DNA from: Cephalotus follicularis | Taxonomy: Eukaryota; Streptophyta; Magnoliopsida; Oxalidales; Cephalotaceae | Length of the DNA: 64,000 nucleotides | Direction of reading: 5' to 3' | Assembly (NCBI GenBank): GCA_001972305.1 | Contig: BDDD01000352.1 | Location: 62,001-126,000 of the forward strand | In this document: positions 14,782 to 62,007 of the stretch, in pieces | How the letters are laid out: each line of letters opens with the position of its first letter | How positions within the stretch are numbered: position 1 is the first letter of the stretch | Program-made: the position numbers and the translations under genes | The notes under the pieces: generated by a model | Databases searched by the model: none | What the model was told of the DNA's origin: nothing | What the model saw: only the letters and a program-made list of their open reading frames with translations

Positions 14782-15063
14782 GAAAAAATCATTGGATTTA
14801 TAACTTCTAACTCTTTGAAAAAATTTTGAAGTCCGGCTACGAGGTCTGAATATTAAGTATGAATCATAGTTTTAGAGACAATAGTTTTAAATGAGGAACT
14901 ACTAAACTCAATCACTTGCTGCCATTTGTAATATCCTGTCCTTGCCTACGTGTTTACCGTTTTATATTATGTTTATGTGATCTGTTATATGTATTGTTTT
15001 TGGACCGTTAAATTTTGAAATTTGAAATTGCCTTCTTTATTATTTTTGAATTTGGGTATAAAG

Positions 15064-15670
15064 CGCTGACGCCTTCATCAGAAACGTCGACGCTTTGGCA
15101 GTGTAGTGGGACACGTGGACGCCTAAACGTGTGACATCGACACGTTTTATTTTAAAAGGTTTAACCGTCGACGCTTTTTGCTAACTGTCGACTCTTTAGT
15201 CAGCTTTCCTATTCTGTTTGGACGGCGACATGCTTATGGAAAATGAGACTTTTGCCATTTTGTTGATCCGATTTTTCCTTCTTTGTCTGGACTCGTATCT
15301 GCATGAAAGGAAAATATTGGTTACACGATTTTTGTCATTACTTCACACGTTTTCTGGCTTTTTAAAACTAAATATTACACTTTGAGAAAACCATCTGGAT
15401 TTTTATCAAACCAGAGCAACAACTTTGTCAGCCTTGTTCTTGATCGAATTTGGCGTCTTTTGAAGGTATTTTCTAAACGAAATTTATAGTTTTGACTGCG
15501 TAGTTTCGATATCAATCTTTAATTTGTATTAAAAACGGTTAGAATTTATATTTGAGTATGATTTTAGAGGCCTATTTGAAATAAAATTCTACTGTTTTAA
15601 ATTTGTTCATCTATGTGATTATTTATATGCATATTTCGTTATACTAGTATTTAAATCAAAGGATTTATGT

Positions 15671-15703
<33 letters not shown>

Positions 15704-16122
15704 GTATGTATGTATGTAACTATTTTATGATGTATGCAAAGAAAATCAGATGGTAGTTTTTAATCTATTTTGTAAACTGCTAATATATCAGAATTTATGT
15801 TCCAAAATTGTTCATACATGTGTTTTGCATTTTGAATGTAATCATATGTATATACTGATGTTTTTAAACTTATAAATCATGATTTAGAATCTGCATGTTG
15901 TTGTTTATGATTTGTGTTTGTAAGAAAATCATATTTGTTCATAATCTTCAACTGATTTTCTGCTACTGGCATTCTGTCTTCGACGCCAACCGTCGACGCT
16001 TATTTCTTGAGCGTCGTCGCTTTACACTGTTAAATGCTATGTGTTAGTCGACGCTTTGCTAAGCGCTTTGTTCCATCATTAATTGAAACCATTGACGCCT
16101 ATAGTTTAACTGTCGACGCTTT
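15064..16122. repeat. Paired GTCGACGCTTT-type motifs in the solo LTR
   Basis: Motifs with the core GTCGACGC (and variants such as CTGACGCC or GTGGACGCC) occur in pairs. By core position these are 15066/15087, 15116/15137, 15168/15188, 15993/16014 and 16092/16113, giving spacings of 20-21 bp. GCGTCGACGC-like cores are palindromic. The sequence between the pairs is unrelated. Confidence 0.7.
15670..15717. repeat. (TA)n/(TATG)n microsatellite
   Basis: A pure TA run (about 28 bp) grading into TATG/GTAT repeats, inside the solo LTR. Confidence 0.9.
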
Positions 16123-17478
16123 CTCTGACAGTTTTGATATTTGTGTCTTTTTATGTTATGTGATGTTTGGGCTTAAATGTTTAGGTCCTCGTATCATCTT
16201 TGGTGGAGATTAGAGTACTCCTTGTTTGTTTTTGATTCGCTATTCGGGTTTATTTAGTTTTTGAACGGCTAAGGTACGAATATTCTTATTCGTGGCTACT
16301 CTTTGATTTTATTAAAATGGACTTTTCATTTCTCAGATATTCGATTTTAATTGAATAAAAATTTGTTTTATTACTGATTTTATATTCTATGCATGATTTT
16401 CACTATCAAAAATATGTTATTTTTGGACATGGCTTTCACTTTCGGAAGTATGCTCAACTTTCAGATACAGATAAGATTATGATTTCAGATATGTCTTTTA
16501 TGAAAGTATGTTGGTGATTCTTATTAAATAATTTCAGATATGTCTGGAGACAGTATACTTACGTATGTTTTAGATTGTTTTAGAATAAAACAATGTTTTA
16601 GCGTAATAACATAAAGAGAAAAACCTACCTATGAGGTATCATAGGCATGTTCCTTTGGCACAGAGGACATGACACTTACCGTAGTAGTGTTATCGGTCTA
16701 CTCCGTCTCTCTTTATATGTATCTTGAGGGTAGGGTATGGATCCTTTTGAGGCGTATGGGTATACTCTAGTTATTGTCAGATTCAGAAATTCAGATTCAA
16801 AGGATTGATTGTGTAGTGCCGTACACGTCCCTTCCGTCAGAGCATATGGGCTTCGCGAACCCCTTGCGCCTATATATTTATGTATATATCAAATTCTCTG
16901 TTATGAGATTATGAAATCAGATAAAGATTTGAATTATGATTTATGATACTATGCTTTACAGAAGGTTATGAAGATTTTTATAACTTTTTATTTAAATATT
17001 CTGTTTTACATTATAAAGAATATTTAATCATATTAATTGTTGATTTTAAAGTTTAGATAGTTGTTTATCCTTTAAATGTCTATTTACTGTTTTACTTTCC
17101 TTATCCGTACTGAGGTTTGCTCAGCCGCTTTTTGTTTCTATGCGGTAGGTTTTCAGGAGCACCATAGGAATGTGTGAGAGAAATGTTACCCTTGTTGGAT
17201 AATCACTTAGGAGTTTGATCTAGTTATGTTTTCAATGGTGTTGTGGCCATGTTTAGGCCAGTCTTATGAACAATGTTATGTTTTCAGTTTATGTTTTCAG
17301 ATTATGGTTTTGAAATTGATTAAGTAAATACATCACACTATGTTTTTAGATTCATACTCTAGTTTAGAATCAGTTATGTTATGTTTAGACCACCACTTTT
17401 GTTTTGAATAAAGCTCAGTGTTTATGTTTAAGTTCTGTTATTGTACCTGTAAGGGCTCCCACCTTCGGGGGTGTTACA

Positions 17479-17749
17479 CCATTAATCTTCAGTTTCTGTT
17501 GAGGTCTATCATGTAGAGTTACTCAAATTGGATCAGTGATCGATTTCTAGGTTTCGACGTAAACCTATCTGGTTTCTTCCAATTACATAAATCAATAGTT
17601 CAAACCGCACTCAAAGGTAGGGCTTTTCCCATTTTTATAAGAACTTCTGCACCATAAACAATGATATCTCCAATTATAGTCCTTCTGGAATATAAAATAT
17701 ATCTCTTCTCACCATTTCCATTGTGTTTGAGATGAATGAATGCATTTTG
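17479..17749. other. Unassigned segment beside the ccsA copy
   Basis: Between the solo LTR and the ccsA fragment. It can be translated on the minus strand through [15 protein letters not shown], which I do not recognise. It may be another organelle-derived piece joined to ccsA, since the ccsA resemblance ends near 17755. Confidence 0.45.
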
Positions 17750-18157: not shown

Positions 18158-18271
18158 TAAGAACCGTTGTATTATCACTAATTCAATTTCAATGAATAGA
18201 TATAATGACTAAAAATCCAATGAAACTTTTGTCCTTTAATCAATAATAAGCATAAATGGGAGTTTTAAATG
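18158..18271 (+). repeat. Duplicated segment, copy 2
   Basis: Partner of 14671-14781. It ends almost exactly where Tat-type polymerase sequence begins, so one edge of the repeat coincides with a breakpoint. Confidence 0.8.
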
Positions 18272-18275
18272 GTTG

Positions 18276-19300: not shown

Positions 19301-19399
19301 GTAGAGATAGAAGAAAATTGGATGGATCCGATAGTGGTCTGGCTGAGAGACTCGCAATTACCAGAGACTCACTCAGAAGCTTGGAGAATCCGAAATAAA

Positions 19400-20560: not shown

Positions 20561-20852
20561 GCTAGGTTTTCAATTTGTAACCTTGCCATCATTAAATAAA
20601 CTTGTATGTTTTGAGAATTTTGCTGTTTTTACTTTGAGTTTGTTCTTTAATATTAATTATGATTGAAAGAATCTCGATTTAACCAAGTTGTCTTCATGAT
20701 TTTCCATTACACTGTTGGATTTGTCAAAATCATCAATTCATAGTCAGTTCAAACACCATCCTAGGAGAGCAACCTCCAAGGCTGGAAGATATCTCAGAAA
20801 ATTGAACTTCGAGATACGACCACTGCAAATCCAAATATCGGAAAGATGTTAC

Positions 20853-21190: not shown

Positions 21191-21383
21191 ATAAAGAAAA
21201 AGAAAAAGACAAAATTAAGAAAGTGCATTTCGTTGATTGGAAAATTCATACATTGGGGGGAACCTCGACCGAGTTATATCACAAAAGGAGAAACACAAGA
21301 AAAGACCGCCTAAGAAGAAGAAGATGGGGGAGCTCGAGGGGCGATGAGCTGACCACTCTCATCCATGACATCCTGAACAATCA

Positions 21384-26069: not shown

Positions 26070-26151
26070 TACCTCTGAGGACTGCCTTCTAGTACGAGGT
26101 CTGCCTTCCAATACGAGGTCCACCATCTAGTATGAGGTCTGCCTCTAGTAC
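26070..26151. repeat. Left part of the TACGAGGTCTGCC tandem array
   Basis: Four units of about 19 bp (TACGAGGTCTGCCTTCCAA-like) running up to the CACTA end. The array resumes at 32531. Confidence 0.85.
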
Positions 26152-28664: not shown

Positions 28665-31600
28665 TCAAACATTTGGAGGCAATACTACCTCCTCCCATTC
28701 CCCATCGCCTCGAAGGGAATCTTCACTTCCAGGTCTTAAATCAGCTGCAAATGATCGCAGTGGACCGGTGGTGACATCTTCTTGCAATGTCATATCCATA
28801 CCCAAATCGTCACCATCTTGTTCTTCATAATTAGGAAGGGTGTAGGCATTTCTTGGTTTCATTTTTATCACAGTCACCCACCCTTTGTATCTATGATCGT
28901 TGGAAACACTGGGTGCGTAGAACACCTGCACAGCTTGACATGCTAGCATGAACGGCTCGTATGTGGGGAGTTCCTTTTCAAGGTTCAGACAAACAATCCC
29001 AAACTCATCCACTCTGGTAACTCTCTCCGAAGTGTCAACCCAATCACACTTGAATAAAATAACTTTGTTGTCTTTTTCGTAGAAATCGTGCTCCACAACG
29101 TCGACCAAGGCTCCGTAGAAGTCACTACAACAATCATTCCAAGTGCTTACCTTAATCATTACACCCCAATTTTGAGTTGTGAGGTCCTCGATGCATCTTT
29201 AGTGTGAAACTTGTACCCGTTGACGACATACCCCTTCCACGACCTCACTTTTGTTGCAGGCGCACTTGCTAAATGTCGTAGATAGGCGTCATTTTCGTTG
29301 TCATTCTTAACCTATTAAGTGTGCAATGTACACACGTAACATAGAAATCAACATCAACAATTAAAAATCATGAAACTTATAAATGCTTTGTAGACATATT
29401 ATGGCATTACTTACACCGCTTTGAAACCATTTCACAAAGTGTGCATCGCGTACTTCTTCAATTTGTTTGGGGGTAATGTTCGGTTTTAATTCCATGACTA
29501 GTTGTTTGTACTCACTACAACAAAGAATATAAGTGAGATACATTCAAATTGCACAATTCATATAAATAGAGTATAAACTTAGTACAAGATATATGTGTAC
29601 TTACTCAACCAGAGGGCTGACTTCATCGTAATTCAGAAAGATGTACAAATATGCAGCCTCGTATTCTTGGTCTGTCATATGTCTATTCTCTGTCTTGCTC
29701 ATTGCTTTATCGGCATGAGTAAATATGGATAGCAATCCATTACTAGCAATGACGCCCCTATCCCAGTTTCTCTCAGGTCTATTCTACCTCGTCAGGACAT
29801 CAGATTCGAAATAATATGAACAAAACGTTGTCAACTCGCGAACGATGTATGCCTTGGAGATCGACCCTTCCACACGAGCTTTGTTCTTGACCATTTTATT
29901 AGATCAAACAACTCTCTGAAATTAAATATGTAATTAAAATGCATGACAAAGAGATGAACATTTTAAGAAAGAGAAACAACGAGTAACTGTACCTCTCAAT
30001 GGGATACATCCATGTATTCTGAACCGGCTCACATACTTTCTTTTCATAAGTTAGGTGGACGAGAAGATGTTCCATCGAATCAAAAAACGATGGAGGAAAT
30101 ATCTTCTCCATTTTGTAAATTGTTTGCACAATGTTACTCTGGAGCAAATCCATCTTTGCAGCACTATTGGATGTTGAGCATATATTCCAAAAAAAATCAC
30201 TGACCTCGGCCAACACCTCCATGATATTTCTTGGCAGGAACTCAGAAAATGCAATTGGAAGAAGCCTATGCATGAAGACATGGCAATCATGGCTCTTCAA
30301 TCCCTTTCACACACCGACATATGTTTGAGGCGTATCCATCCGGAAACCTAATCTTTGTCATCCATTCACAAACTTGTTTGACCTGTTCATTGTTCAGTGA
30401 ATATTTTGCTGGTTGCAATATGAACCACCCATCCACCTCTTCTGCATGCAGTTCAGGTCTTATTCTCAACTCTTTCAGATCAAGTCGAGCTTGTACGTGG
30501 TCCTCGGAAAGTCACTAATCGTCCACATTAAAGCTGCTCATATCTGAAAGTTTTTCTTGCGCAATGCATCATAGGTTTCAACTCCAGTTTCCCACAACAT
30601 CTTCAACTCGTCAACGAGTGGATGCAGAAACACATCAATATCTTTCCCTGGGCTTTTTGGTCCAGGTATAATCAAGGATAAGAACATGAATGGCTTTGTC
30701 ACACACAACCAAGGTGGAAGATTGTATGGGAAAACAAAAACAGGCCAGCAGGAGTAAACACTATTACTCACCCCAAAAGGACAAAACTCGTCCGTTGCTA
30801 TTCCTATTCTAACATTGCCAACCTCTACAGCAAAAGATGGAAAAGTAATATCAAAGTGCTTCCAAGCTTCACCATCAACCGGGTGTACCATTCCCACTTT
30901 GACACCGTCGTTATCCTTCCTCTTCTTACTATGCCACCTCATATCAGTAGATGTTTTGTCTGATTGAAACAACCTCTGAAGTCTTGGTGCCACTGGAAAC
31001 TGACGCAAAACCTTGTAAGGTACTTGTTTTTTTCTCTTTCTGCCACCGCTAGGTTTGAATCTAGGACGATTACATGTTGGACACTCTGTAGCACACTTGT
31101 GTTGATCCCCATAATACAACATACAATCATTGACACATGCATATATCTTTTTGTAGCCTAATCCCAATGTCTTCATAATTTGTTTCACCTTGTAATAACA
31201 CTCCGGCAACTTCTCATCCTCAGGCATTCCACTCTTAACGATCTGAAGAATTTCCTCGGCCCCTTCATTAGGAATCCCATACTTGAACTTGACATTCATG
31301 ATTCGCGTCATCATAGACAGCTTGGTGTGTTTTTTATAGCCATTCCACAACTGTTCATCCGCATCCTTAAGCAGGTCATAGAACTTCTTTGCATTGGGAT
31401 TCAGAAGTTCATCGGCCGTCTCATCATGTTCATGAGTATCAAACTCGAACCCCCAAGCATCCATTACGAGATCAAAAAAAGGATTGCTCACACCCAAGGG
31501 GTCTGGCTGCTCCACTACAGCCTGACGGCGTTCCCTCCTTTCCCCATGTTGATCCCACAACGTGTGATGGGGGTTGAAACCGTTCTTCAACAAATGTAAC

Positions 31601-31788
31601 CGCACTTCAGATCGAGTTCCAAATGCCCTTAACTTGCAACGACTACAAGGACATTTTATCGTACTATTCCAGACAAACTATTCATTTGAGAATTCAAAAT
31701 CTAAGAAAGCGAGCACACCCCTGTTAAATTCCTCCGTTAGTAAACCCCAGACAACCCGCCTACTCATCCAACTTCTGTCCACATACAT
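28665..31788 (-). pseudogene. TNP2-type CACTA transposase gene, degraded
   Basis: Read on the minus strand. The transposase-associated zinc domain starts at 31788 (MYVDRSWMSRRV, then CPCSRCKLRAFGTRSEV); one in-frame TAG lies at 31680-31678. The frame then stays open to 30538: a VMDAWGFEF linker, the Tnp2 core (GYKKIYACVNDCMLYYGDQ, ATECPTCNRPRF) and DGEAWKHFDITFPSFA through FGVSNSVYSCWPVFVFPYNL to LKMLWETGVETYDA. The middle of the usual protein after this point is missing. The C-terminal part resumes with AKYSLNNEQVKQVCEWM and the DUF4218 block SHDCHVFMHRLLPIAF and IFPPSFFDSMEHLLVHL (30300-29990). Then come exons to a DUF4216 domain (29159-28800: VILFKCDWVDT). The exon at 29543-29400 ends in a good donor (GTAAGT). 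It belongs to the RNase H-fold DDE transposases. Internal loss and stops make it inactive. Confidence 0.85.
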
Positions 31789-32528: not shown

Positions 32529-32530
32529 CA

Positions 32531-32755
32531 CGTTCTAGTACGAGGTCTGTCATCCAGTACAAGGTTCGCCATTTAGTACGAGGTATGCCTTCTAGTACGA
32601 GGTCTGCCCTAGTACGAGGACCGCCAGCTAGTACGCGGTCTGCCTTTGAGTACGAGTCTGCCTTCCTGTACGAGGTCCGCCTTCTAGTACAAGGTCTGTC
32701 TTCTAGTATGAGGTCTACCTTCCAGTACAAGATCTGCCTTCTAGTACGAGGTCCG
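32531..32755. repeat. Right part of the TACGAGGTCTGCC tandem array
   Basis: About eleven imperfect units of 18-21 bp built on CTAGTACGAGGTCTGCCTT. It is the continuation of the array at 26070-26151. The CACTA element landed inside this array of the solo LTR. Confidence 0.88.
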
Positions 32756-33388: not shown

Positions 33389-33393
33389 AGATT
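33389..33393. repeat. Target duplication GAGAT, left copy
   Basis: GAGAT precedes the TG of the chromovirus and recurs at 43906-43910 after its terminal CA. Confidence 0.88.
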
Positions 33394-34049
33394 GTAATAA
33401 CAGCAACTTCAATTCATGTATTTTGTATCCAACGATGAATAAAATATACCTTTTGAGATATTATGTTGGTTATCTTTTGAATAGAATGATGTTGGAATAA
33501 ATTCTTAGATAAAAAGCTAAAGAAATAATTTCTGGTGCCAAACCACTGACGCCTAAAGTCAAACCGTCAACGCTTTGCGCGGTGTTAGGAATGTGACACA
33601 CGCCTGTTAGAACAGAGCAGCGATGCCAAATGGTTTTCCTTGCAAGCTAAGTGTCCAGAGACGTGTCAATCATGAAAGGAAACGTTTCCAGCTGTAGATA
33701 GTGCCAGACTAAAGTGTCTTGCATGCCTCTTTTCACCTGCAACCGGCAAAAACACAGCTGAAAGGGATAATAGGAAACAAAGAGAGGATGCATGCATGAG
33801 GGAGAGAGAAATGTGCATTAAAAGTTAAACCAACTGTAGGATGAAAGGCACGAATTTGAGCACTTATATCAGCTGATACTTGAGCTGAGAGTTGAAAAAC
33901 ACAGAGAAGAGGAGAATTGCTGGAGGATTGTGGAAGCTTGCATTTGAGGATTAGAGTGTCAAGAGACTTGGAAGCTTGTTTTCCCGGTAAGTTCCTAATC
34001 CGAATCCGTCGTCATGATTATAAGAATGAGTGTTAAGTTACTGAATCTA

Positions 34050-42727: not shown

Positions 42728-43905
42728 TGTAATAACCGCAACTTAAATTCATGTATTTTGTATCCAACGATGAATAAAATATACCTTTTGAGATATTATA
42801 TTGGTTATCTTTTGAATAGAATGATGTTGGAATAAATTCTTAGATAAAAAACTAAAGAAATAATTTCTGGTGACAAACTGCCGACGACTAAAGTCAGACC
42901 GTCGATGCTTTGCGCGGTGTCAGGAATGTGACACACGCCTGTTAGAACAGAGCAGCGACGCCAAATGGTTTTCCTTGCAAGCTAACTGTCCAGAGACATG
43001 TCAATCATGCAAGGAAACGTTTCCAGCTGTTGATAGTGCCAGACTAAAGTGTCTTGCATGCCTCTTTTCACCTGCAACCTACAAAAACACAGCAGAAAGG
43101 GATAATAGGAAACAAAGAGAGGATGCATGCATGAGGGAGAGAGAAATGTGCATTAAAAGTTAAACCAACTGCGGGATGAAAAGCACGAATTTGAGCACTT
43201 ATATCAGCTGATACTTGAGCTGTTTGAGAGTTGAAAAACACTGAGAGAAGAGGAGAATTGCTGGAGGATTGTGGAAGCTTGCATTTGAGGATTAGAGTGT
43301 CAAGAGACTTGGAAGCTTGTTTTCCCGGTAAGTTCCTAATCCGAATCCGTCGTCATGATTATAAGAATGAGTGTTCTGTGACACCCAAACCACTGTACTG
43401 ATTGATTGTACCCTTGTGCGGTATTCTTGCATTGTACTATCTATGGCCACTTGGCATGATTGCGTATATATATATATATATATATGTCATTCATTTAAAC
43501 TGTCATGCATATTTACATTTATAGATTCAATTACATGCTTTATCTACCTACTAGCCAAGTGAGGACAACGGCTAACCCCTACAATTTCAGATTAAGCGAA
43601 GACATGCGGGAAGTGTTGCTGAAGCTTGGAGGGTTTATCTACTTAAGGTTGTTATTCTTTTGATGTACTGTATTTGTATTGAACGGTTTGCACTCCGTTA
43701 CTGTTGTACTTTCCTTATGCATAAGGATATTGTTGGATTGTGCCTGCACGTAGTATGGGCTGCATGCGGATGACTTGTATTTTATAATCCAGATATGAAT
43801 GCTTCCGCTTATGCTATTGAATTGTTGAATGAGAATGATGGATTATATTTATTCTGATATCACCGCATATGTTTGTCTAATGTAATTGAATAACGGGGTG
43901 TGACA
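42728..43905 (+). repeat. 3' LTR of the Tekay element (1178 bp)
   Basis: Begins TGTAATAACCGCAAC after the purine tract and ends ACGGGGTGTGACA, followed by the GAGAT duplication. It matches the two ends of the 5' LTR. A (TA)n run lies at 43464-43485 and a phased GTCGAYGC motif pair at about 42881/42902 (21 bp apart). Confidence 0.9.
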
Positions 43906-44054
43906 GAGATGAAGCATGCCTTAGTGGAAGGAAGCTTCTTAGAGAAGCTACTTGATTAATACTTGTTGAAGGACACTTGGCAAGAGATTATGGTGGACAC
44001 ATGTCATGTTACCATACAACATTGCACGTTATCATATAATACAAACAGTTTATA

Positions 44055-44254: not shown

Positions 44255-45359
44255 GTAAAAACCCTAAATATTATAATGTATTATTATTGGGCTTTAGAAT
44301 TCTTTTCTTTCCTATTGGGCTGGGCCATGATATTATAAAGAGTTTTATTGGGCCAAAATGGAATATAATTTATGACTTTAGACTTAAAAGAGTTATTCTT
44401 CCCTTTGGGCCGAATTGGATTACGACTTTTTGTCAAATTAGGCTCAAGTGAAGGAATGGAAGTGAAGCCCAAGAGAAGGGGACGGCCCAAGACGTTTCCT
44501 GTACCCATTGGAAACACCTAGTGGATTTTGGAACCTTCAGCTCATGTGTTTATATATTGAAAGGCTAATAGGAGACACGCTTTTGGCATTTTCCTTGCAC
44601 AATCCCATTGGAAGAATCAAGAGAAGTGAGGGGAGTGGAAAATGGGGCCAGATGCTGGCGGAAATGGAGAAAGCGACAATATGGGAGTTATGGTAGGAAT
44701 TCCCTACCTCCTACACTCCTACCTTTAAATACCCATTCCTTGGAAGCGAGGGAAATTGCGCAAGGAAGAAGGAAAGAAGTGAGCTAAAGCGTGTAACAGT
44801 CCTCGACAAGGAAGGAGCCCAGAACCAAGCAAGAAAGAAGACTTTCTCCATTTTCAACCATCATCGAGGTAGGTTGCTTCATGTCCGAGCGCCTACCAGC
44901 ATGTGTGTTTGTGTGTGTGTTGTTGTTGTTGTTTTTTTTAATTGTTTGAATGCGCATGTTACTGTGTGTTATTTTTGTGATTGTTTGTGTTTGTTAGACT
45001 AGGATTCTGCCCTTCTCTGTCAAAAATTGATACCCGACCATGCCTCAGTGGTTGGAAAGCACTTAGAAATGAAGTAAATGCCAGGGTACAAGGTGTCGAG
45101 GACACCAAAGTATGCGTCCAAGCACATCTGACCCTGTGTACAAGGATACCAAGGTATATGCCTGAGGAGCATATTGCCATATGAGCATAATGCCCAAGGA
45201 GCAGAGGTGCCCGGGGAGCATAATGACCAAGGACTACTGGTCCAACCAGTGCTTGCACGTCGTTGGAGGACTACATGTCCGACCAGTGCTTGCACGTCTG
45301 TGGAGGACTACATGTCCGACCAGTGCCAGTACGCCTGAGGTGGACTAAGTGTTCGAACA

Positions 45360-45640
45360 GTGCGAATCATATGCGTCTGAGGATCCAACCATGGCTTTCC
45401 TCTGCCACGTGTCCGAGGATCCCAAGGCATGCAGCTAAGGATCCCAAGGCATGCACCTAAGGACCCCAAAGCATACATCTGACGACCCTAAACTATGTGT
45501 CCGAGGGTCCAACCATGGCTCTCCTCTGCCATGTGTCCGAGGATCCAAAGGCATACGTCCGAGGACCCCAAAGTATGGGCCCGAGGATCCTAAAGTATGC
45601 ATTCGAGGATCCCAAAGTATGTATCCGAGGACAACTAAGC
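45360..45640 (+). repeat. Tandem array GTCCGAGGACCCCAAAGTATGC in the E LTR
   Basis: About a dozen imperfect units of 20-22 bp built on CCGAGGATCCCAAAGCATGC, broken twice by a longer block containing ATGGCTTTCCTCTGCCA. The matching array in the other LTR is at about 54300-54550. Copy number differs between the two LTRs. Confidence 0.85.
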
Positions 45641-45839
45641 CTATTCCAAGCATTCAGAGGATGTACATGAAGGATATGTATAAAGGCAAACCAAGTATAG
45701 GTATGGAAAGCAATGCCTAGTGCAAAGGGCACCGAGATGACGAAGGGTCAGAGCATTGTGAAGCAGAGGTCCTCCTCTGCCCAAGGGACCTGATAGGAGG
45801 ACGTCCTGTGATAGGTGAACTTAAGGAGTGAATCCACAT

Positions 45840-46090
45840 AGAGGTTGTCCTGAGCTGGTGAGCCCACTAAGCGGAGAATTCCGCCAAGCAGGTGAACCTA
45901 AGGGGGGAATACCGTTGGGTAGGTGATCCTTGGGCGAACCTACTTAATGGTGAACCTAATGGTGAATTCCGCAGTAAGTAGGTGATCTTAAGGGAGACTT
46001 CCGCGGGCAGGTGAGCAAAGGGTGAATTCCGCTCAGCAGGGGATCCCGAGAGTGAATTCCGTTGGCAGGTGAGCCTAATGGTGAACCATG
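45840..46090 (+). repeat. Second array (GGTGAATTCCGC...GCAGGTGA) in the E LTR
   Basis: Roughly eight imperfect units of about 28-35 bp built on GTGAATTCCGC and GCAGGTGAGC. The partner array lies at about 54760-55015. Confidence 0.8.
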
Positions 46091-46655
46091 TAGATGACCA
46101 GACCTTAGCATACCAGACTTGACTCCTCTGCATAATGTTTATGGATTGTATGGTTGAGTAAAGTAGTCCGAGGACCAGGGATGGATTATGTATTATGGTC
46201 TGCACTTATGTTATGGCATGCACCCATTTCCCTTTGTTTATTGGTTGTTCCTCTGGTATGTGCCTACGTGTGGCTTCCTACACAACCCCTTGGGTTGCTG
46301 ACCCATTCTCTGAATGGGACAGGTCTAGGTACAGGTCTAGGCATTGGCGGAGGATCCCAGTAGCAGCAAGGATAAAGAGAAGAGTAAGTCCTCCTCCTCG
46401 GTAGTGCGTTCCTGCAGTTGAATTTTACAAGAAATATTTATGTATTTTGTTTTAATAATCTGTGGGGTTGTTGCAGTGTATTTTTATATGTATTGTTTTG
46501 GAACTGAGTATATATCCTACACATTAAATAAATGGTTTTGTATTAAGTTTTTATTTTGATGGGTTTTGCATAATGGAAATGGATAAGGAAAAATGTACGG
46601 ATTGCCATGTGTAGGGTCGTGAGGCCTAACCCACGATTCGGGGCGTGACAAGCTT

Positions 46656-51027: not shown

Positions 51028-52686
51028 TTGTTTAGCATAAAAATGTGTGGTTTTTAATGAGTTATTTGTTATATTTTTGTGCTTGGAATAGACTACTGTG
51101 GTTGTGTTTATTTGATTTTCAGGTATTATGTTAATTATTGTGGAAGAAGAGAAAATGAAGATAAAACACTAGTTTTCGAGTTAAAGTGGTTTGAAGTAAA
51201 AAATCGGTTCAAGAGTACACCCACTTAAGCGAGAGAAGTCAAAATTTAAAGCTCAAAAGATATTGAATATTGGACTCATTTTGTTCATAAAATTAGTTGG
51301 AGCACTTTTAATTCTTGGGCCGGTTTATTCTGAAGTTCCGATGAAGAGATATCATAAGAAAACATATGTTGAATCATTAAAGCCTATTGCTGACATCATG
51401 CTAATCTCATCCACGCATGCAACGAAGCCATTCAACTCTTAAGCGCACAAATTTTCATCTGCCGAATCCATGCGTATTATCCAGCCCATGCGTCACGCCA
51501 CCATGCAACTATCAAGCCGCAATTCAACATGCATAAGTCTTCAACCCAAAAGCATGCAACCACGAGTCCATGCGTCCATTCAGCATCCTCTCCATGCACT
51601 ACACGCCAACATGAGTCGATATATCAGCGCCAGCAACCCATGCATGCGCCCCATGACAATTCATGCACGCCTCAGATTGCAAAGTTTACATCGGCCCAAG
51701 TCTGTGATGCCCATACATGCATGCAATTCTGCCGCCAAAAGCTAATGACAGAATCAGCAAGGCAATTCCACATGCGCGCCAAAGAAAAGGAAAGAAAAAA
51801 AATTGCCGGCTTTGATTGCTTTTACAACTGGGACAATTATGCATTGCTTTATGTTTTAGTCAGTTAGCGGCTATATATATATATATTGCAGAAACAGTTG
51901 AGTAGAGAGAGTAGGCACAAAAGCAGGCAGCCGCCATATACGATTTTCTTTTTTTTTTCTTTGTTAGTTTTTATGTTAGTTTTCTTAATGTTTTGTAGCT
52001 AAACTATTTAAGGTTTTAGGGAAGAACAAAGACTAGATTGTTATTGTGTCAATTCTAGCAATAAAAATCCTTGAATATTTGATTTGCTCTTCAATATTTC
52101 TGCCTTCACACACACTTTGTCTATCTGACTAAAATCCATAAACATCTTATCGGTGAAGCTGAAAGTTGGTGAATAAGTGGTGCTTAACTCAATCAACGAA
52201 GTCTACTCATACTGTTTGTCACAACGAACACACTTCGTATAGACCTAGCATGACTACTCATACGTCTTGTCATCACCATCGCACTCTGTATCGACCTAGT
52301 TGTCGCTGGTTATCAAGGTATGATCGTTCAATTAAATGGAATGGTTCCATACAATCTACGGTGAGTTTCTATACCCTAAAACCGATTTTTAATTATATAT
52401 TTTCTTCACTTCTATTCATTATTTTGATTCGTTTTAAAATTGCATATTTTATTTCTTGGTATATTGAATTCAGTGTTTTTAACTCTCGAAGTCTTAATTT
52501 CCTGTTTTGATTATTTATTTTGCATAATTAGGAGTAGTTTTCATAATTAAACCTTGATTCTGCATACTTTGCTTAGGTTGAATAAATTACAACTAGTTTA
52601 ATGTTTCCCTGCGTTCGACCCGTTTCTGCATGATCCGTGCACTTGTGGCTATAAATTTTAAAACATCATTCTTTTGACAGTGAACA
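51028..52686 (+). mobile_element. Solo LTR (Athila/Tat-like) in the E integrase region
   Basis: A 1.66 kb non-coding block interrupts the integrase tail of element E, whose sequence stops at CAGAAAA and resumes with AAAAGCTATGC. The insert starts near TTGTTTAGCAT and ends near CAGTGAAC, flanked by AAAA on both sides. Near its right end CCCTGCGTTCGACCCG and CACTTGTGGCTATAAATTTTAAAACATCA resemble in layout the 3' LTR ends of Athila/Tat elements (I quote only the recognisable words). No coding frame belongs to it; the frames at 51470-51867 are chance. I cannot fix the exact ends. Confidence 0.68.
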
Positions 52687-53186: not shown

Positions 53187-55349
53187 TGTAAGAGCCCTAA
53201 ATATTATAATGTATTAGTATTGGGCTTTAGAATTCTTTTCGTTCCTATTGGGCTGGGCCATGATATTATAAAGAGTTTTATTGGGCCAAAATAGAATATA
53301 ATTTATGACATGGGACTTAAAAGAGTTACTCTTCTCTTTGGGCCTAATTGGATTATGACTTTTTGTGGAATTAGGCTCAAGTGAAGGAATGGAAGTGATG
53401 CCCAAGGGAAGAGGACAGCCCAAGACATTGCCTGTACCTGTTGGAAATGCCGGGTGGATTCTGGAACCTTCAGCTCATGTGTTTATATATTGAAAGGATA
53501 ACAGGAGACACGCTTTTGGCATTTTCCTTGCACAATCCCACTGGAAGAATCGAGAGAAGTGAGGGGAGTGGGAAATGGGGCAAGATGCTGGCAGAAATGG
53601 AGAAGAAGACAATATGGGAGTTATTATAGGAGTTCCCTACCTCCTACACTCCTACCATTAAATACCCATTCCCTGGAAGCGAGGGAAATTGCGCAAGGAA
53701 GAAGGAAAGAAGCGAGCGGAAATGTGTAACAGTCCTCAGCAAGAAAGGAGCCCAGAACCAAGCGAGGAAGAAGCCTTTCTCCGTTTCCAACCATCATCTA
53801 GGTAGGTTGCTTCATGTCCGAGCGCCTACCAGCATGTGTGTTTGTGTGTGGAGTTGTTGTTTTGTTTGATTGTTTGAATGTGTATGTTGTTGTGTGTTAT
53901 TTTTGTGATTGTTTGTGTTTGTTAGACTAGGATTCTGCCCTTCTCTGTCAAAAATTGATGCCCGACCATGCCTCAGTGCTTGGAAAGCACTTAGAGATGA
54001 CGTAAATGCCAGAGTACAAGGTGTCGAGGACACCAAAGTATGCGTCCAAGCATATCTGACCCTGTGTAAGGATACCAAGGTATATGCCCGAGGAGCATAT
54101 TACCCGATGAGCATAATGCCCGGAGAGCATATTGCCCGAGGAGCATATTGCCCGATGAGCATAATGCCCGAGGAGAAAAGGTGCCCGAGGAGCATAATGA
54201 CCAAGGACTACTAGTCCAACTAGTGCTAGCACGTCCGTGGAGGACTACGTGTCCGACCAGTACTAGTACGCATGAGGTGGACTAAGTGTTCAAATAGTGC
54301 GAATCATATGCGTCCGAGGATCCAACCATGGCTTTCCTCTACCATGTGTCCGACGATCCCAAGTCATGCACCTAAGGACCCCAAAGCATACATCTGAGGA
54401 CCCTAAAGTATGAGTCCGAGGATCCAATTGTGGCTTTCCTCTGCCATGTGTCCGAGGATCCCAAGGCATACGTCCGAGGACCCCAAAGTATGCGCCCGAG
54501 GATCCTAAAGCATGCGTCCGAGGATCTCAAAGTATGTATCCGAGGACAACTAAGCCTATTCCGAGCATTCAGAGGATGTACATGAAGGATATGTATAAAG
54601 GCAAACCAAGTATAGGAATGGAAAGCAATGCCTAGCGCTAAGGGCGCCGAGCTGACGAAGGGTCAGAGCATTGCGGAGAAAAGGTCATCCTCGGCCCAAG
54701 GGACCTGATAAGAGGATTAGTAAGACGTCCTGTGATAGGTGAACTTAAGGAGTGAATCCACATAGAGACTGTTCTAAGCTGGTGAGCCCACTGAGGGGAG
54801 AATTCCGTCAAGCAGGTGAACCCAATGGGTGAATACAGCTAGGCAGGTGATACTCGGGCGAATCCACTTCATGGTGAACCTAATGGTGAATTCCGCCGTA
54901 AGCAGGTGATCTTAAGGGAGACTTCCGTTGGCAGGTGAGCAAATGGTGAATTTTTCTCAGCATGGGATCCCGAGAGTGAATTCCGCTGGCAAGTGAGCCT
55001 AATGGTGAACAATGTAGATGACCAGACCTTAGGATACTGGACTTGACTCCTCTACGTAATGTTTATGGATTGTATGGTTGAGTAAAGTAGTCCGAAGACC
55101 AGGGATGGCTTATTTATTATGGTCTGCACTTATGTTATGGCATGCACGCATTTCCCTTTGTTTATTGTTTGTTCCTCTGGTATGTGTCGTACATGTGGTT
55201 TCCTACACAATCCCTTGGGTTGCTGACCCATTCACTGAATGGGCCAAGTCCAGGCTTTGGCGGAGGATCCCAACAGCAACAAGTATAAAGAGAAGAGTAA
55301 GTCCTCCTCCTCGGTAGTGCGTCCTACAGTTAAATTTTACAAGCAATAT

Positions 55350-57872
55350 TGTCACACCCCGCTTCAATAACAATATGTAAGTCATGGCAATTAACATAAA
55401 TATGCAGCTTATGTAAATACGGTAAACTTTAAAACTTTAATACCATTAACATCTTGCGGAAGCATTTAATAAGCTGAATAAGTAAACGGAATCATGCGTC
55501 CCATACCACATGATTCTGATATCTAACATCATTAAGCCATTGTTAACTGCCCACAAACGGAGCACGATCAAAAGTCGATCAACATCATTAATACATTAAT
55601 ACAGTAATCCAAAATAAAACATGTTTTAATACATTGTTTTAACATTTAATCGAGTAGATAAAACTCCATCTCCCCTCTGATTCGGCCGCGCACGGTCGAT
55701 ATCTAAGTCCTTGCATCAATCTGTAATAGTAGGGGGTTAGCCTTTGTCCTCACTCAGCTAAGATATAAGTGTAATTTAGAGTCAATAATAATGAATGTCA
55801 TGTAATGAATGCATCCATGATGCAATACATAGTATATCACAATACATATATATATGTATACATATATGTATCTATTCCAATAGGTGCAACTATGCCAAGT
55901 AGCTACAACCATCAAATCATAATCATGTCTCAAAGGACAAATCAAATCAAATCAAATCGGTACGAAGAGCGCGCCATCTCCTGGCCCCGACGTCGTACTC
56001 TTACTCCGGCCCCCGACTACCGAGTCACGAAGCAAGGCAACAAATCAAACTCATGATGCTCGCACTCTGTGTTCAGCAATCATGGTAACCCGTTTTACTT
56101 GCGCTATGTGTCTAGTAACATTGTATTTTGGCGTCCCTAACCATCTCCTGGCCCCTAGGAGAACATCCCGCCACCAGCCATCAGCGACACTCTGTCACCC
56201 CAGCCAGTACGGCATCAATCACAATCAACAAATGAATTCAAATCTAATCGTTTCCATGTAATTTATAAAATACTGGAAATAATATATTTATTTTAAAATG
56301 TATTGCATCTTTGAAACCATGTTTCAATCCGTCTAAAACATACATTTATTAAAATATACATTTTCGTATCAAATAATGATTTGTATAAAATCATGTACAC
56401 ATTTCTAAAATGAATAAAACACTTTAGAATCATCCATATTCCAATCATCAATTCATTTCATGTCAATGCAATGCAAAAAATATGCTCAAAGTGTATGTTA
56501 GTCCCTCAACAGTCGGCTGTCCCTTCATGACAGTCAGTTGTTTCCTCATGACAGTTGGATGTTCCCTCTAATAGTCGGCTGTCCCAGATTTGGTAGTCGG
56601 CTGCCTCCCTTAACAGTTGACTGTCTCATGTTTGACAGTCGACTGCTCCCTTAACAGTCGGCTGTCTCCTGAAGACAGTTGGCTGTTTCATGAACAGTAC
56701 GCATCTTCTACATCGCCGCTGAACCCAACATTGCCATCTCAGCGAATCCGGGTAAAGTGACACATGGACAGTCGACTGTCATTCCAAACAGTTGGCTGTG
56801 CCATCTATAATCAGCTGCCTTCCTTTGGCAGTCGGCTAATCATACAGCAGGAGATAACCTCCATTAAAACGCATGAACAGTCGACTGGCTCTTTAGCACA
56901 GTCGGCTGTTTCCCTCGAGTAGTCGGCTATTCGCACTGAACAGTAGGCTGTCCTCTTTGGACAGTCGGCTGGTCTTGCGAGCAGTACACAAAAACAATAG
57001 AAAATACATGTAATTCTCAGCCCAATCCATTCAAATAGAGCATTCATCAACAAAAACACATTTCATGCTCATATTCACAGTCCATTGCATGCATTTCATC
57101 TATGAACATCTATTATAATTGAACTTAAATCACAATCAGAAAATCCCCTACCTTTGAATTCCAAGTTAGGAATTGCAATCCATCTCTTTAAGTTCCAAAT
57201 CCGAAGTTTCCAAGCTTCCAAATTCGTCCAGCAACTCAACCAAGCTCAGTTCTTTCCACTGGTTCTTGTCTCCAAATCCACAACTAAAAAACGGAGCACT
57301 TAGGCTTAACCACACACTCACTTCCTCCCCTTTTCTCTCCACTCTTTGATTCTCTCTTTCTTTCTCTGTGAAATGGTGAAGAATGGAGTGAAAGAACATG
57401 TGCTTTTATGGAGAAAACGTGTTTCTTTTTCTCCCTGCGGACATAACACATCAATCCCCTCTCTCTCTGTAGTGGCAGGTCTGGCATGCACTTATGCCAT
57501 CTGACGCATGACAGTCGACTGTTTTCCACGGTAGTCGGATGTCTCTCCCGACACTTCCATTCGGCTGTTTCTCCCAGCAGTCGGCTGGCTCCACTTAAGG
57601 GGGTCCAGTCGGCTGTCTCCTTCCGGTAGTTGGCTGCCCGCCCTGCTCAACACACTTTACACATCTTTTCATGCAAACTTTAACATACAAGATGAGAAAT
57701 TCATGATTCTCATTAATTCAAAGCATAATTTACATTGGAAATACAATATTACACTTAATGAAAATCCCGAGCGTGTCCTTTTTGTAAACATGCTAATGCC
57801 TTTTGTAACATCTTTTATTGATATATATTAACCAAATTGTTCCAAAAAAAAAAGAAAATCACGAGCGTGACA
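55350..57872 (-). mobile_element. Solo gypsy-type LTR (2523 bp), target duplication AATAT
   Basis: Starts TGTCACACCCCGC and ends CACGAGCGTGACA, flanked by AATAT at 55345-55349 and 57873-57877. The uninterrupted partner LTR at about 46430 carries the site only once. The CACACCCC start is the reverse of GGGGTGTG-type LTR ends, so its orientation is minus. It contains a large array of CAGTCGGCTG motifs. No coding region accompanies it. Confidence 0.92.
56510..57645. repeat. CAGTCGGCTG motif arrays in the solo LTR
   Basis: The same 10-bp motif as in the gag-only element's LTR, with variants CAGTTGGCTG, TAGTCGGCTG and the palindrome CAGTCGACTG. A run starts at 56510, 56531, 56552, 56572, 56594, 56614, 56636, 56655 and 56676 (steps 19-22 bp). 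Further copies lie at about 56768-56965 and 57510-57640. The intervening sequence is not conserved. Confidence 0.82.
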
Positions 57873-58090
57873 AATATTTATGTATTTGGTTTTAATAATT
57901 CTTCGGATTGTGGCAGTGTATTTTTATATGTATTATTTTTGAAGTGGGTATATATCCTACACATTAAATAAATGGTTTTGTATTAAGTTTTTATTTGGCT
58001 GGTTTTTGCATAATGGAAATGGATAAGGAAAAATGTACGGATTACCATGTGTTGGGTCGTGGGGCCCAACCCACAATTCGAGGCATGACA

Positions 58091-59640
58091 CTAATGTTCC
58101 AACTCCTGCTAGCTTGCTTCAATCCATAAATGGATTGCTGTGGCTTACGTACCTTATGTTCATTACTAGTGGATATGAAGCCCTCAGGTTATGACATGTA
58201 AAGATCTTCCTCAATGAAACCATTTCGGAAAGCTGTCTTTACATCCATCTGATAAATCTCTTAATCGTAGTATGATGCAATAGCAAGCATAATCCGAATG
58301 GACTTAATCATGGCTACTAGAAAGAAGGTTTCATCGTAATCAATACCCCTTCTCTACTTGTAGCCCTTAGCAACCAACCTTACATTGAAGGTGCTAACAT
58401 TTCCATCTTCTCCAATCCTCCTATTGAATATCCATTTGTATCCAATGAGTATTATACCGTCAGGTGCGTTGACCAAGTTCCATACCTAGTTGGAGTACAT
58501 GTAGTCCATTTAGGATACCATGGCTTCTTTCCATGTAATGGAGTCTACATCCGATATGGCCTGACCGTAGCTAGTGGGATCATCATCTAGAGATTTACCT
58601 CTTGGGTATCTTCAATGAGAAAACTGTTGTAGTATCTCTCAAGTGCCCTCGATATCCTACTATCCTACGAATGGGTTGTGTAACATTTGCTTCCATTGTG
58701 GGCTTTGGATCTTTGGTGGGTGGTTTGTGGTGCTTGTGATAGTTCATCAATCCCTAATTCGCTCCTACTATCTCCTATAAGGAGAAAATCATTCTCTAGG
58801 AATACGGCATTCGTTGCAACAAATGCCTTGTCGTCAACGGAATGGTAGAAGTAATATCCCTTAGTTTCTTTACGATATCCAACAAAACGACACTTTACTT
58901 AATCATTTCTCCAACTTGCCTTTAGTTGTCTACTTTACCTAACCAGGACAATCCCAAATCTTAATGTGATTAAGATTGGCTTACGACCCGTCCATATCCC
59001 ATATGTAGTCTCAGGGGCAGATGTAGTTGGAACCCTGTTCAGTAAATATGCGAAAGTCTCCATGGCATATCCCCAAAGTATAGTGGTAAATCAGTATGAG
59101 ACATCATACTATGCACCATATCAAAATGAGTCATGTTCCTCCTTTCGGATACACCGTTATGCTGCGGTGTTTCAGGAGGTGCCCATTGCAAGAGAATCTC
59201 ATTCTCTCATAGATAAGTAAGAAACTCAGTAGAAAGGTATTCGCCTCCTCGATCAGATCGAAGAGTCAGAATGCTTTTCCTTACCTGTTTTTCAACCCCA
59301 TTGCTGAATACTTAAATTTCACAAAGGCTTCATACTTTTACTTCAACAGGTAAAAGTACCCATATCGTGACAAGTCATCAGTGAAGGTGATGAAATGAGA
59401 ACAACCCCCTATAGCATTAACTGTTATAGGACCACATACATAAGAGTGTATTAGTCCTAATAGATCCGTAGCTTTTTCCCATTGTCCCACAAAAGGAGAT
59501 TTGGTCATTTTTCCCTTAGGACAAGGTTCGTAGGTTGGTAAATTAACGTACTGAGAGATATTTAAATATCCCTTAGCCACCATCCTACTTACTCGTTTAT
59601 CAGAGATATGACCGAGCCTATAGTGTCATAAGTATGAGTT
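58091..59640 (-). pseudogene. Copia B RT first part, integrase and pre-integrase remnants
   Basis: On the minus strand, about 58330-58100 reads IKSIRIMLAIASYYD, QMDVKTAF and GFIEEDLYM, the first RT blocks. The region around 58330-58560 holds the RT entry, and between it and 59337 lies the integrase C-terminal half. 59583-59338 reads VAKGYLNISQY, then KGKMTKSPF and CGPITVNAIGG with HFITFTDDLSRYGY, the GAG-pre-integrase to integrase-core transition. The order is that of copia. It is broken. Confidence 0.82.
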
Positions 59641-60051
59641 ATTTACTAGTTCCCTTTTCCTTTTAGTTCCATGGTCAATATTAGGTATGTGTTTGGGTTC
59701 ATCTAAAACATAAAATCCAGGTGTTAAAAAAACTATAAATACAAAACATCTTTATAATATATAGAACAACCCTTGTTCATTATCATAAAACGGTACCTTC
59801 TGCATCTAGTGCAAATACCGATATTGTGTTCTTAATTAATATAGGCACAAAATGTACAAAATTTAATTCAATAGTTCTATCAGCAGACAGTTTTAAAAAC
59901 CTAATCTTGTACCTAATGCAACCACAAAAGCTCCATTTCCCAGTCGTAGGTCAACTTCATCCCTCCCAAGGGTTGTACCTCATCGTGGCACATGCACATC
60001 ATTTACAATGTGAGACGGGCATCCGATGTCTAGCACCCAAGAAGTAGATAA
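59641..60051 (-). pseudogene. Copia B pre-integrase and protease remnants
   Basis: Near 60040-59980 the minus strand reads SWVLDIGCPSHIVNDV, the copia protease active-site region (consensus WVLDTGC.SHI). Weaker copia-like sequence follows to 59641. The LTR of the next element begins at 60052. It is broken. Confidence 0.75.
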
Positions 60052-62007
60052 TGTAATACTTATTTCAAGGGTACAATCAATCACTACACTGGGTGGGTGT
60101 CATCTAGTGCCACCTCCTAGCTCAATCGATACACCACTTGACTATCACCATGCACTCCGATGTGATAGACTAGGTAACACTTATTTCAAGCACTTGGCGG
60201 GCAATATAACACTCACTGTCTGCAATGCAGATAAATTTGGTGAATGAGCTAGAGCCAGCTCTTGGCACATCTGCTCACCTCTGTAGTCAATCGGAAACAC
60301 TTCAATCACAATCAATCACTGAAATTACATATATATAATATGTAAAATAACACTAGTTTTCGTTGAGAAAATGGTAAACACTTTCACTTAAAATCTCTTT
60401 TGAGGAAACAATAAAACACTTCACTGACTGTGACTCACTTGGAGGAAACAGTAAGACACTACACTAGGTTTCCCTTTTGAGGAAACAAAATAGTACATTT
60501 AGTTTTCCTTTAAAAGCAGTAATAGAAAACCATTTGGTTATGCATATAGCACCAATAGTAAAGCACTAAAAATCACTTGATAGATATATATAATATCTAT
60601 AACAATATATCACTTCAATAATATGCAATCACTCAGTCAATACAATCATTGGTGGTTCTAGGAATCAAACCACATAAATGCAAGCAAACATATGCTCAGA
60701 ATGTAAAATAGTCACTATAGGCGTCGAAGTGTATCTTAGGCGTCAACGTGCACTTATGCGTCAACATTTATCTTAGGCGTTAACGTCATCTATGCGTCAC
60801 TCTTTACCCACGTGTGTTAACGCATTAAGGAAGGACCTTAGGCGTCAACGTTCAATATTTGCGCCGACGAGTTAAGGTAGGAACCTTAAGCGTCAACGTT
60901 GTCCCTTTAGGCATTGATGTCCCGGGAACCAGAAGGCTTACGCGTCAATGTGAACTTAGGCGTCGACGTAAATCATCCCGACACTACGAAACATCAACTA
61001 ACTCCAATTATGGTGTTAACGTAAACCACTTAGGAGTTGACGAAAACCAACCTATCCTTACAAAATACCGCCTATTCCAGTTATGGTGTTAACGTCAATC
61101 ATTTAGGAGTCGACGTGAATCGAACGCAGAAAGACAATCGGTTAACAATCATTTCAATCAAACATGGATTCAACACTTGGAAATCAACATGCAAGCACTC
61201 ATAATCACCAACACAATATACAAGCCATATTTTCGTAAGCATGTCATAAACCCTACTACCTACCTCTGATTCCAAGTTTCGAAAGTCCACTTCTTTAAGC
61301 TTTAATCCGATCCTCAGCTTCTCCAAGCTTCAAGATCCGGTTCAATCACTCCACTTCCGAGTTCCAAGATCTGGTCCTCAACTCCTTCTCCCGGCACAAA
61401 ATGGCGGAACAACAACGCTCTCACTCACTCTCTCTTTCACTGGTGTGAGGTTTGGAGAAGAGGAGAGGAGCTTTAATGGAGTCACTCCTCCCTCTCCTTC
61501 CTCATGGCAGGTGACAAGACCTCCATCAATCACTCTTCTCTCACTTTTCATCAATGCAGAGCATGCGGAAGTGCAAAATCTCGCACTTTTGTCCCTCACA
61601 CGTCTTTTGTCCTTCCTTTAACGTATTATGCCGACACTTTAGGCATCAACGTCAATGCTGGGCGTCAACCCATTGACTCCCTGCCTTGGCGTTAACAAGA
61701 TCTTCTAGTCGCGTTAACGCCTATCCCCTTCCGTTCACCAGCAATGGACGTTAACGTCCTCGCATGGCATCAATGCCTTCAGGTAAAAGCCTTAAGCGTG
61801 TTTCAATGTTACTTGGCATCGACGTCAATGCATGGCATTGACGCACAAGTGCCCTGATTCCTTTACCCTCAACACTTAGACTTATCTTCCTTCAATACCC
61901 ATAACAATAAGCTAATTAAAGGACAATTAGCAAATAATCTCATATCAATGTATAATTTTATTCATGAATTATACAACATACATCAAAATGAAATTGCAGT
62001 CATTACA
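60052..62007 (-). repeat. 3' LTR of chromovirus F (1956 bp)
   Basis: In plus-strand reading it starts TGTAATACTTATTTCAAGG and ends TTGCAGTCATTACA. The minus-strand start TGTAATGACTGCAA follows the purine tract directly. The partner LTR is outside the window. It carries many GGCGTCAACG motifs (60720-61110 and 61620-61850). Confidence 0.82.
60720..61850. repeat. GGCGTCAACG/GGCGTCGACG motif clusters in the F LTR
   Basis: Some two dozen copies of a 10-bp motif, GGCGTCAACG with variants GGCGTTAACG, GGCATCAATG and GGCGTCGACG. The densest run (cores at 60724, 60743, 60761, 60780 and 60797) has steps of 17-19 bp. Later copies are looser. The cores GTTAAC and GTCGAC are palindromic. Confidence 0.75.

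Follow-up and report, generated by a model that had tools for sequence, protein, structure and literature searches.

Arrays of palindromic repeated motif (RM) boxes have been described in the long terminal repeats (LTRs) of Sireviruses, which are copia-type retrotransposons. Thirteen elements with such boxes are described there, each carrying 8–32 copies; 3–14 of these sit in the 3′ LTR, for the most part within the upper half (Bousios et al. 2010, PMC2829016). The array begins 200–400 bp into the LTR and is 300–500 bp long, and the TATA box is found on average 37 bp past the CpG island of the RM boxes (PMC2829016). In the same account the boxes are conserved while the LTRs diverge, the motif is reported as Sirevirus-specific by comparison with classic Ty1/copia elements, and a common factor binding the boxes is not identified (PMC2829016). 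Comparable arrays occur in a 64,000-nucleotide stretch of the Cephalotus follicularis genome (contig BDDD01000352.1, positions 62,001 to 126,000; hereafter the window), a nest of plant transposable elements. Here, GTCGAC-like sites about 21 bp apart are found in the LTRs of a copia-type element and also in those of several Ty3/gypsy elements. All element arrays were compared within this window of one genome. With a probability of roughly 0.55, reasoned from the DNA sequence, the arrays may be read as promoter boxes that bind a dimeric host factor.

Regularly spaced sites in copia and gypsy LTRs

Element A, on the minus strand, is flanked in direct repeat by a 5′ LTR (5564-6334) and a longer 3′ LTR (2462-3718) enclosing a copia-type gag open reading frame (ORF). 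C (14927-17478, plus strand) and F (55350-57872, minus strand) are solo LTRs. D, on the plus strand, has an LTR2 at 42729-43906 and an LTR1 whose left part (33393-34049) is cut off by the insertion of another element, Dins (34050 to about 35870, minus strand, right edge approximate). E has an LTR1 at 44255-46438 on the plus strand and a second LTR at 53188-55349, and G is an LTR truncated at its far end (60052-62007, minus strand).

Pairs of GTCGAC cores lying 19–22 bp apart, with at most one mismatch per core, were counted in each LTR and in 300 dinucleotide shuffles of it. The 3′ LTR of A holds 9 such pairs, its second LTR 3, C 3, Dins 4, F 6 and G 2. These counts are reached in 0/300 shuffles for A (both LTRs), C, Dins and F, and in 1/300 for G. 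D has a single pair in LTR2, reached by 2/300 shuffles, and none in either part of LTR1. Pooling A, C, F, G and Dins gives 24 pairs, distributed as 4, 2, 14 and 4 over distances of 19, 20, 21 and 22 bp, and a second peak of 11 pairs at 42 bp. No GTCGAC pair at 19–22 bp occurs in 11 other stretches totalling 45,001 bp, which include both E LTRs and both copies of repeat B and make up part of the window (57873-59999, for example, lies outside them). The most frequent 6-mer of any kind at these distances is CAGTCG, with 14 pairs. A scan that presupposes no motif, for like palindromic 8-mers 18–23 bp apart, finds 24 pairs, whereas 40 shuffles average 2.6 and never exceed 7. Of the 24 pairs, 19 fall in the LTRs of A (both of them), C, Dins, F and G; the other 5 lie outside these LTRs. 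The arrays are real and beyond chance. A preliminary description of this DNA had reported GTCGAC-like arrays spaced by about 21 bp in copia and several gypsy LTRs, which both the core pairs and the motif-free scan bear out.

Anatomy and position of the boxes

Site lists were picked by hand from mismatch-tolerant matches (for A, CAGYCGRCTG with at most 2 mismatches). The matches at 57078 in F and at 15221 and 16818 in C were dropped before counting, and the site at 35720 in Dins and the first site of each D pair were added by hand. The 3′ LTR of A contains 17 boxes of sense sequence CAGYCGACTG (3064-3554), exactly 21 bp apart in 12 of 16 steps. F contains 23 ACAGYCGACTGT boxes in two clusters, 6 in array 1 (57512-57636) and 17 in array 2 (56510-56971), and 16/22 steps measure 19–22 bp. 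The 21 ACGTYRACGCC sites of G are likewise divided between array 1 (61642-61845) and array 2 (60720-61117, 13 sites), with 11/20 steps of 18–23 bp. Steps of this length make up 5/11 in C, where 12 sites, AACCGTCGACGCTTT alternating with TGACGCC, form an array 1 of (AAC)CGTCGACGCTTT and TGACGCC units (15062-15195) and an array 2 (15976-16120). They make up 5/9 in Dins, which has 10 AAAGACRTCGAYGTCTTT sites (35415-35733). The earlier figure of about 21 bp needs correction in this respect: it forms a sharp peak in A and, less strictly, in F, and Dins and G mix steps of 18–22 bp. D has one pair of sites in each LTR (33542-33574 and 42877-42909). The sites previously placed at 33546/33567 and 42881/42902 in Tekay LTRs correspond to these pairs, but the two LTRs belong to one element and only LTR2 holds a core pair. 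The long motifs quoted earlier are present, albeit in few exact copies: CGTCGACGCTTT occurs 3 times (once in Dins), AAAGACGTCGACGTCTTT once and GGCGTCAACG twice.

In A and F, spacer columns mostly carry less than 0.6 bit of information and box columns 1–2 bits; the box columns are biased towards conservation because the sites were chosen by match, whereas the spacer columns are unbiased. The boxes of C and G are looser by the same measure. Dyad pairing is high at the majority of core positions: it is 0.82, 1.0, 1.0 and 0.88 in A and 0.78, 1.0, 0.83 and 0.70 in F, and ranges from 0.5 to 1.0 across ten positions in Dins. Changes within boxes, whose direction depends on the consensus chosen, are C>T or G>A in 11/11 cases in A, 19/23 in F, 35/50 in G, 7/13 in C and 11/19 in Dins. 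The ratio of observed to expected CpG is 1.33–1.88 in the C and Dins arrays and G array 2, 1.08 in G array 1, 0.65 and 0.84 in the F arrays and 0.49 in the A array (GC content 0.54), compared with 0.62 for the window.

TATA-like and splice sites were assigned by pattern match or by eye. The A array begins about 165 bp into the LTR and is 491 bp long. A TATA-like TATAAG at 3019 follows the last box by 45 bp, near the middle of the LTR, with weaker matches at 2774 and 2500; it fits the published Sirevirus TATA consensus weakly. F array 1 ends about 100 bp before CATAAAA at 57410, and G array 1 about 165 bp before ATTAAAG at 61477 (another match lies at 61306). Past the TATA-like site, F and G continue with a purine-rich putative leader, then a common AACTTGGAAT...AGGTAGG stretch (84.6% over 26 bp) that resembles a splice donor, and then array 2. 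C also has two clusters, and Dins retains one. No TATA box is assigned to C because its only TATA-like matches lie in an AT repeat and beyond.

Common descent and competing explanations

Pfam matches to Ty3/gypsy Pol or Gag domains are found in D, E, G and Dins, and spread over these four are RVP_2, reverse transcriptase, RNase H, H2C2 and SH3_Tf2-1. Pieces of the Dins and D reverse transcriptases are 79% and 70% identical to that of E, and G, which lies in the window from RNase H on only, matches Dins and E by tblastn. A chromodomain-like AEEATWERE...FPHLF ends D and G and is decayed in E (read by eye, without a Pfam Chromo match); Dins is truncated. We take these four to be one Tekay-like chromovirus clade, Tekay being the name used in the preliminary description and presumably the right one. 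Relatives of the reverse transcriptase were confirmed in 0/5 and 0/226 candidate stretches in viral contigs and in 0/23 in genome contigs; 9 stretches from a pattern scan of viral contigs are taken, by judgement rather than calculation, for chance.

The LTRs themselves are related. G matches D at 77.6% over 827 bp across the start of U3 (the unique 3′ region), including the end of pol, and at 70.7% over 225 bp of LTR. For segments outside the arrays, each comparison was scored against 100 dinucleotide shuffles. For the leader, z is 11.1 for F-G, 5.0 for F-D, 2.8 for D-E, 2.0 for F-C and 1.5 for G-D; for the far part of the LTR it is 39.8 for G-D, 15.2 for F-D, 5.6 for D-Dins, 4.4 for F-Dins, 4.0 for F-G, 2.5 for D-E and 2.4 for G-Dins. 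The flanks of C show nothing clear in either segment (at most 2.0 against F, G and D, and -2.0 against Dins). The sequence at 16086-16122 in C array 2 is a 37-bp unit with paired sites that matches the D pair (83.8%). F is thus placed in the Tekay-like group by flank homology to D and G, and C appears tied to it only through its LTR termini and the unit in common with D. The earlier claim that the flanks share no ancestry fails for D, F, G and Dins, and the C/D unit also speaks against it; an independent origin of all six LTRs is rejected on both counts. Because the flanks of D, F, G and Dins have common ancestry, the arrays of the gypsy LTRs largely go back to a single inherited design. E is the negative member of the clade: it has no GTCGAC pairs, yet carries a promoter-proximal array of a different unit (16, 22 and 37 bp; CCGAGGA core in 22-bp steps) that ends about 50 bp before TATAAAG at 45679. 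Dense tandem arrays of 16-, 22-, 37- and 29-bp units occupy 45150-45640, 45949-46085 and 54080-54560 of the E LTRs, with the CCGAGGA core in the first and last of these.

Since the gypsy LTRs are largely related by descent, the sole case that crosses superfamilies, and the part of the earlier claim of convergence that stands, is A against the gypsy group. The leader of A, the one segment of it entered in these flank comparisons, shows no likeness to any other (highest z 1.1). The comparison is sharpest for F, whose motif CAGYCGACTG is that of A.

The arrays would be cis-regulatory repeated-motif boxes, tandem dyad-like sites to which a dimeric protein, probably encoded by the host, would bind. 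Adjacent sites about two helical turns apart would set the dimers on the same face of the DNA, upstream of the TATA box of the LTR, whose transcription they would drive; in F and G the second cluster would follow the leader, probably within a 5′ intron. Growth would proceed by tandem duplication, after which the spacers drift while the box is kept, and boxes would decay mainly by C-to-T changes, as is typical of methylated DNA. In the Tekay-like group the design would have been inherited while the motif diverged by family, the array of A would correspond to the known Sirevirus boxes, and the motif common to F and A would best be explained by a response to the same factor, with a past exchange between elements as the alternative.

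Several observations weigh against dimer sites of this kind. The boxes, described earlier as palindromic, are palindrome-like and mostly imperfect: the exact palindrome CAGTCGACTG is a minority form (5/17 in A, 4/23 in F), the inner dyad pair, which is broken in GCCGAC, is kept in 0.35 of A and 0.22 of F sites, and the centre pair of G in 0.43 of sites. Steps outside 18–23 bp show no significant 10.5-bp register (p = 0.07), and a strict 10.5-bp register for every step is rejected. The motif-free scan also finds 12 pairs at 12–17 bp, 8 at 36–41, 18 at 42–47, 10 at 48–53, 13 at 54–59 and 19 at 60–65 bp, with few at 24–29 (2) and 30–35 bp (2); multiples of 21 account for part, not all, of these distance classes, for which no shuffles were made. 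Finally, relatives differ in their motif (F from C, D, Dins and G) or lack it altogether (E), an odd outcome if one conserved host factor were at work.

A response of A and F to one factor has to be set against another origin of the F boxes, in which recombination or template switching brought them in from a Sirevirus like A. This is an unlikely but serious contender, as the two elements have an identical 10-bp motif in the same sense orientation and a local match of 76% over 80 bp (E 1e-6). That match is confined to the arrays: the spacers alone show no detectable similarity (p = 0.087, suggestive at most), nor do the array-free segments (z -0.6), so that no A/F homology beyond the arrays is detected.

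The spacers bear also on a second alternative, that the arrays are neutral minisatellites in which slippage duplicated short units and the palindromes are incidental, or favoured only by the way such repeats arise. Short tandem repeats in LTR retrotransposons are a known source of plant satellites, according to work cited in the text available from PMC12477314. Spacers are still alike within A and within F (0/2000 shuffles reach either value), a trace of tandem duplication, which the promoter-box reading predicts as well; A also contains a 107-bp higher-order duplication, and E of the same clade has its 16-, 22- and 37-bp arrays without GTCGAC pairs. Against this stand the strong contrast between box columns and spacer columns in A and F, an A/F box that is common without detectable spacer similarity, and the one core found in five LTRs. 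GTCGAC also leads the exact palindromic 6-mers at 19–22 bp, AT repeats aside, if only by 3 pairs to the 2 of GGATCC. A neutral origin is rather improbable.

Self-complementary boxes could act at the RNA level, transcript hairpins feeding or evading small-RNA silencing. Bousios and colleagues reportedly proposed such a role in maize Sireviruses in 2016. Sense RNA of all five arrays folded beats dinucleotide shuffles, with z-scores of -11.4 in Dins, an extreme value, -3.4 in A, -2.7 in G array 2, -2.5 in F array 2 and -2.2 in C array 1. However, shuffling destroys palindromes by construction, and because of this the modest z-scores follow from the DNA pattern alone. Moreover, arrays ahead of the TATA box would enter the transcript only at its 3′ end, and hairpins need no regular spacing of two helical turns. 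An RNA-level role is improbable, but with folding stronger than in shuffles it keeps some weight.

There is little likelihood that the A and F boxes (CAGCCGACTG arrays) are DREB/CBF-type stress elements whose palindrome is secondary. The DREB/CBF core is RYCGAC, and GYCGAC stands in sense in 15/17 A boxes. The outer CAG/CTG, outside this core, is nevertheless conserved about as well as the centre, and most G sites have a GTTRAC- or GTCAAC-like centre with no CGAC. For its part, the DREB1 motif is reported to be LTR-associated across 75 plant species (PMC11656987, in the part available). Most doubtful is that the boxes are targets of a transposon-encoded VANC-like anti-silencing protein that coevolves with its motif, unrelated elements having borrowed the latter: the pattern is like that of VANC target arrays in the available text of PMC5735166, and the elements are broken, so that a gene could have been lost, but none of all 16 stop-to-stop ORFs of at least 150 aa in the window has a VANC-like Pfam match. 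Thirteen of these ORFs match retroelement or CACTA-type domains, and those at 34168-34671, 36894-37370 and 51394-51867 have no Pfam match.

Beyond promoter boxes bound by a host dimer, a broader proposal may be put forward tentatively. A single dyad-binding factor with a TCGA-centred site could control LTRs of two superfamilies, and RM-type boxes could be a general regulatory currency of LTRs, including Tekay-like ones. The flanks would then evolve family by family, much as in the VANC arms race, and at least one gypsy family, F, would have converged on the copia motif or captured it. If the boxes are such a common copia/gypsy switch, a single host protein would account for a large share of a plant genome being activated or silenced together. 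The factor behind the Sirevirus boxes would then become tractable, as a protein able to bind CAGTCGACTG arrays as well as CGTCGACG arrays.

Some further features of the array-bearing elements and their neighbours may be recorded. C has the terminus GGGGTGTTACA and a target-site duplication of CCATT; a 114-bp direct repeat (93.9%; 14671-14782 and 18158-18271) brackets it together with about 700 bp of organelle-like appearance, judged by eye. F has the sense terminus GGGGTGTGACA and the target-site duplication AATAT. A 219-bp stretch after E LTR1 (46432-46650) occurs again past F (57872-58090, 90.9%). Because it recurs after LTR2, E may be a tandem of LTR-internal-LTR-internal structure with F inserted at an LTR edge. 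In Dins, an LTR part is joined to a truncated integrase, which runs straight into the LTR array region (35840-35900); a segment from mid-integrase through the LTR start is seemingly missing, since the integrase abuts the array directly. A, together with about 5 kb more, is enclosed by a 1.4-kb direct repeat (89.7%; 156-1566 and 11253-12686), possibly an LTR pair or a duplication, the termini of which are not typical of LTRs to the eye.

Comparison with known systems

Phased short repeats that serve as protein-binding arrays are known from CACTA (En/Spm) elements, the short subterminal repeats of which bind transposase. They resemble the present arrays in this respect but belong to non-LTR elements and have another motif. 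The window contains 19-bp repeats (GAGGTCTGCCTTCTAGTAC-like; 26077-26151 and 32533-32753) flanking tnp2 transposase and DUF4216 ORFs on the minus strand (28665-31677), which are likely to be CACTA subterminal repeats. The Tnt1 LTR promoter has repeated, partly symmetrical activator boxes, few in number and different in sequence from the boxes described here. The symmetry of Tnt1 box I is mentioned in the available text of PMC2829016.

VANC targets are short motifs in tandem repeats of non-coding parts that vary among related families, and the motif is also found in the unrelated element AT9TSD1 (Hosaka et al. 2017, PMC5735166, in the text available; see also PMC8756742 and PMC12859917). The likeness to VANDAL elements lies in this arrayed, short, non-coding motif that differs among relatives and is common to an unrelated element. 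In contrast, the VANC motifs given there, YAGTATTAY and AGTTGTCC/AGTTGTAC, are not dyads, and VANDALs encode VANC, which is not seen among the 16 window ORFs scanned. In Lathyrus sativus, 9/11 major satellites derive from short tandem repeats in LTR retrotransposons (cited in PMC12477314). Such repeats also form short tandem arrays within plant LTR retrotransposons, but the passage concerned is silent on palindromes, promoter placement or motifs in common.

The closest counterpart remains the Sirevirus RM box, and element A is the natural point of comparison. The sequence CTACT, read by eye, stands on both sides of A. Its gag ORF encodes 393 aa on the minus strand, and an ORF and Pfam scan finds no pol between the LTRs. 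A (2462-6334) resembles gag-only elements, presumably of the TR-GAG type. The segment matching 2990-3477 is absent from the 5′ LTR, where 4 boxes remain (6098-6170); the roughly 490 bp gone comprise most of the array and the TATA-like site. Before the 3′ LTR stands AGGTGGAG, with 7/8 positions of the Sirevirus polypurine tract (PPT) octamer AGGGGGAG, followed by AT and then by TG. An inverted repeat, of which one arm adjoins the PPT and the second lies in the LTR, has a match score of 14, reached by 24/1000 shuffles, and a polyC signal, read by eye, appears near the LTR end as a C-run before TAGACTTCCTACA in the 5′ LTR and a shorter one in the 3′ LTR. Multiple PPTs are not found: no exact copy of AGGGGGAG stands in the 469 bp that separate the gag ORF from the LTR.

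Like Sirevirus LTRs, A has dyad-type boxes ahead of a TATA-like site, and its 17 boxes in one LTR fall within the published description of at least 8 copies per element. Its CAGTCGACTG is two transitions away from the Vitis box CGGTCGACCG and also from the centre of the Tnd-1 box ACAATCGATTGT, and all three have a TCGA centre (box sequences as given in the available part of PMC2829016). However, the A boxes (CAGYCGRCTG) lack the CGG-CCG dyad signature, and the A array does not form a CpG island; the Tnd-1 box also lacks this signature in the same text. Because these traits are mixed, with AT/TG, a near-PPT, an inverted repeat and polyC on one side and no multiple PPTs, CGG-CCG or CpG island on the other, we call A Sirevirus-like, with an array that probably works like RM boxes, and do not file it as a strict member.

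The preliminary description held the arrays to be possibly undescribed. For the copia part this does not hold, since it was described for Sireviruses in 2010 (PMC2829016). No description of palindrome arrays in gypsy LTRs was found in the open-access literature by title or abstract start, and none of LTR boxes of the GTCGAC or literal-motif type by title among the matches listed; the available parts of PMC12786077 and PMC10794571 contain nothing on such boxes. The word Tekay is absent from PMC2829016, and the gypsy part may therefore be new. The hosts C, F, G and Dins are not Sireviruses: Ty3/gypsy Pol is present in G and Dins, F shows homology to D and G, and C is linked only by its termini and the D unit. 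In contrast to the published Sirevirus pattern, Tekay-like Ty3/gypsy LTRs also carry the boxes here, and those of C, F and G have two clusters of them. What may be new is this occurrence of RM-type boxes in a second superfamily of LTR retrotransposons, next to a copia array of a kind already known.

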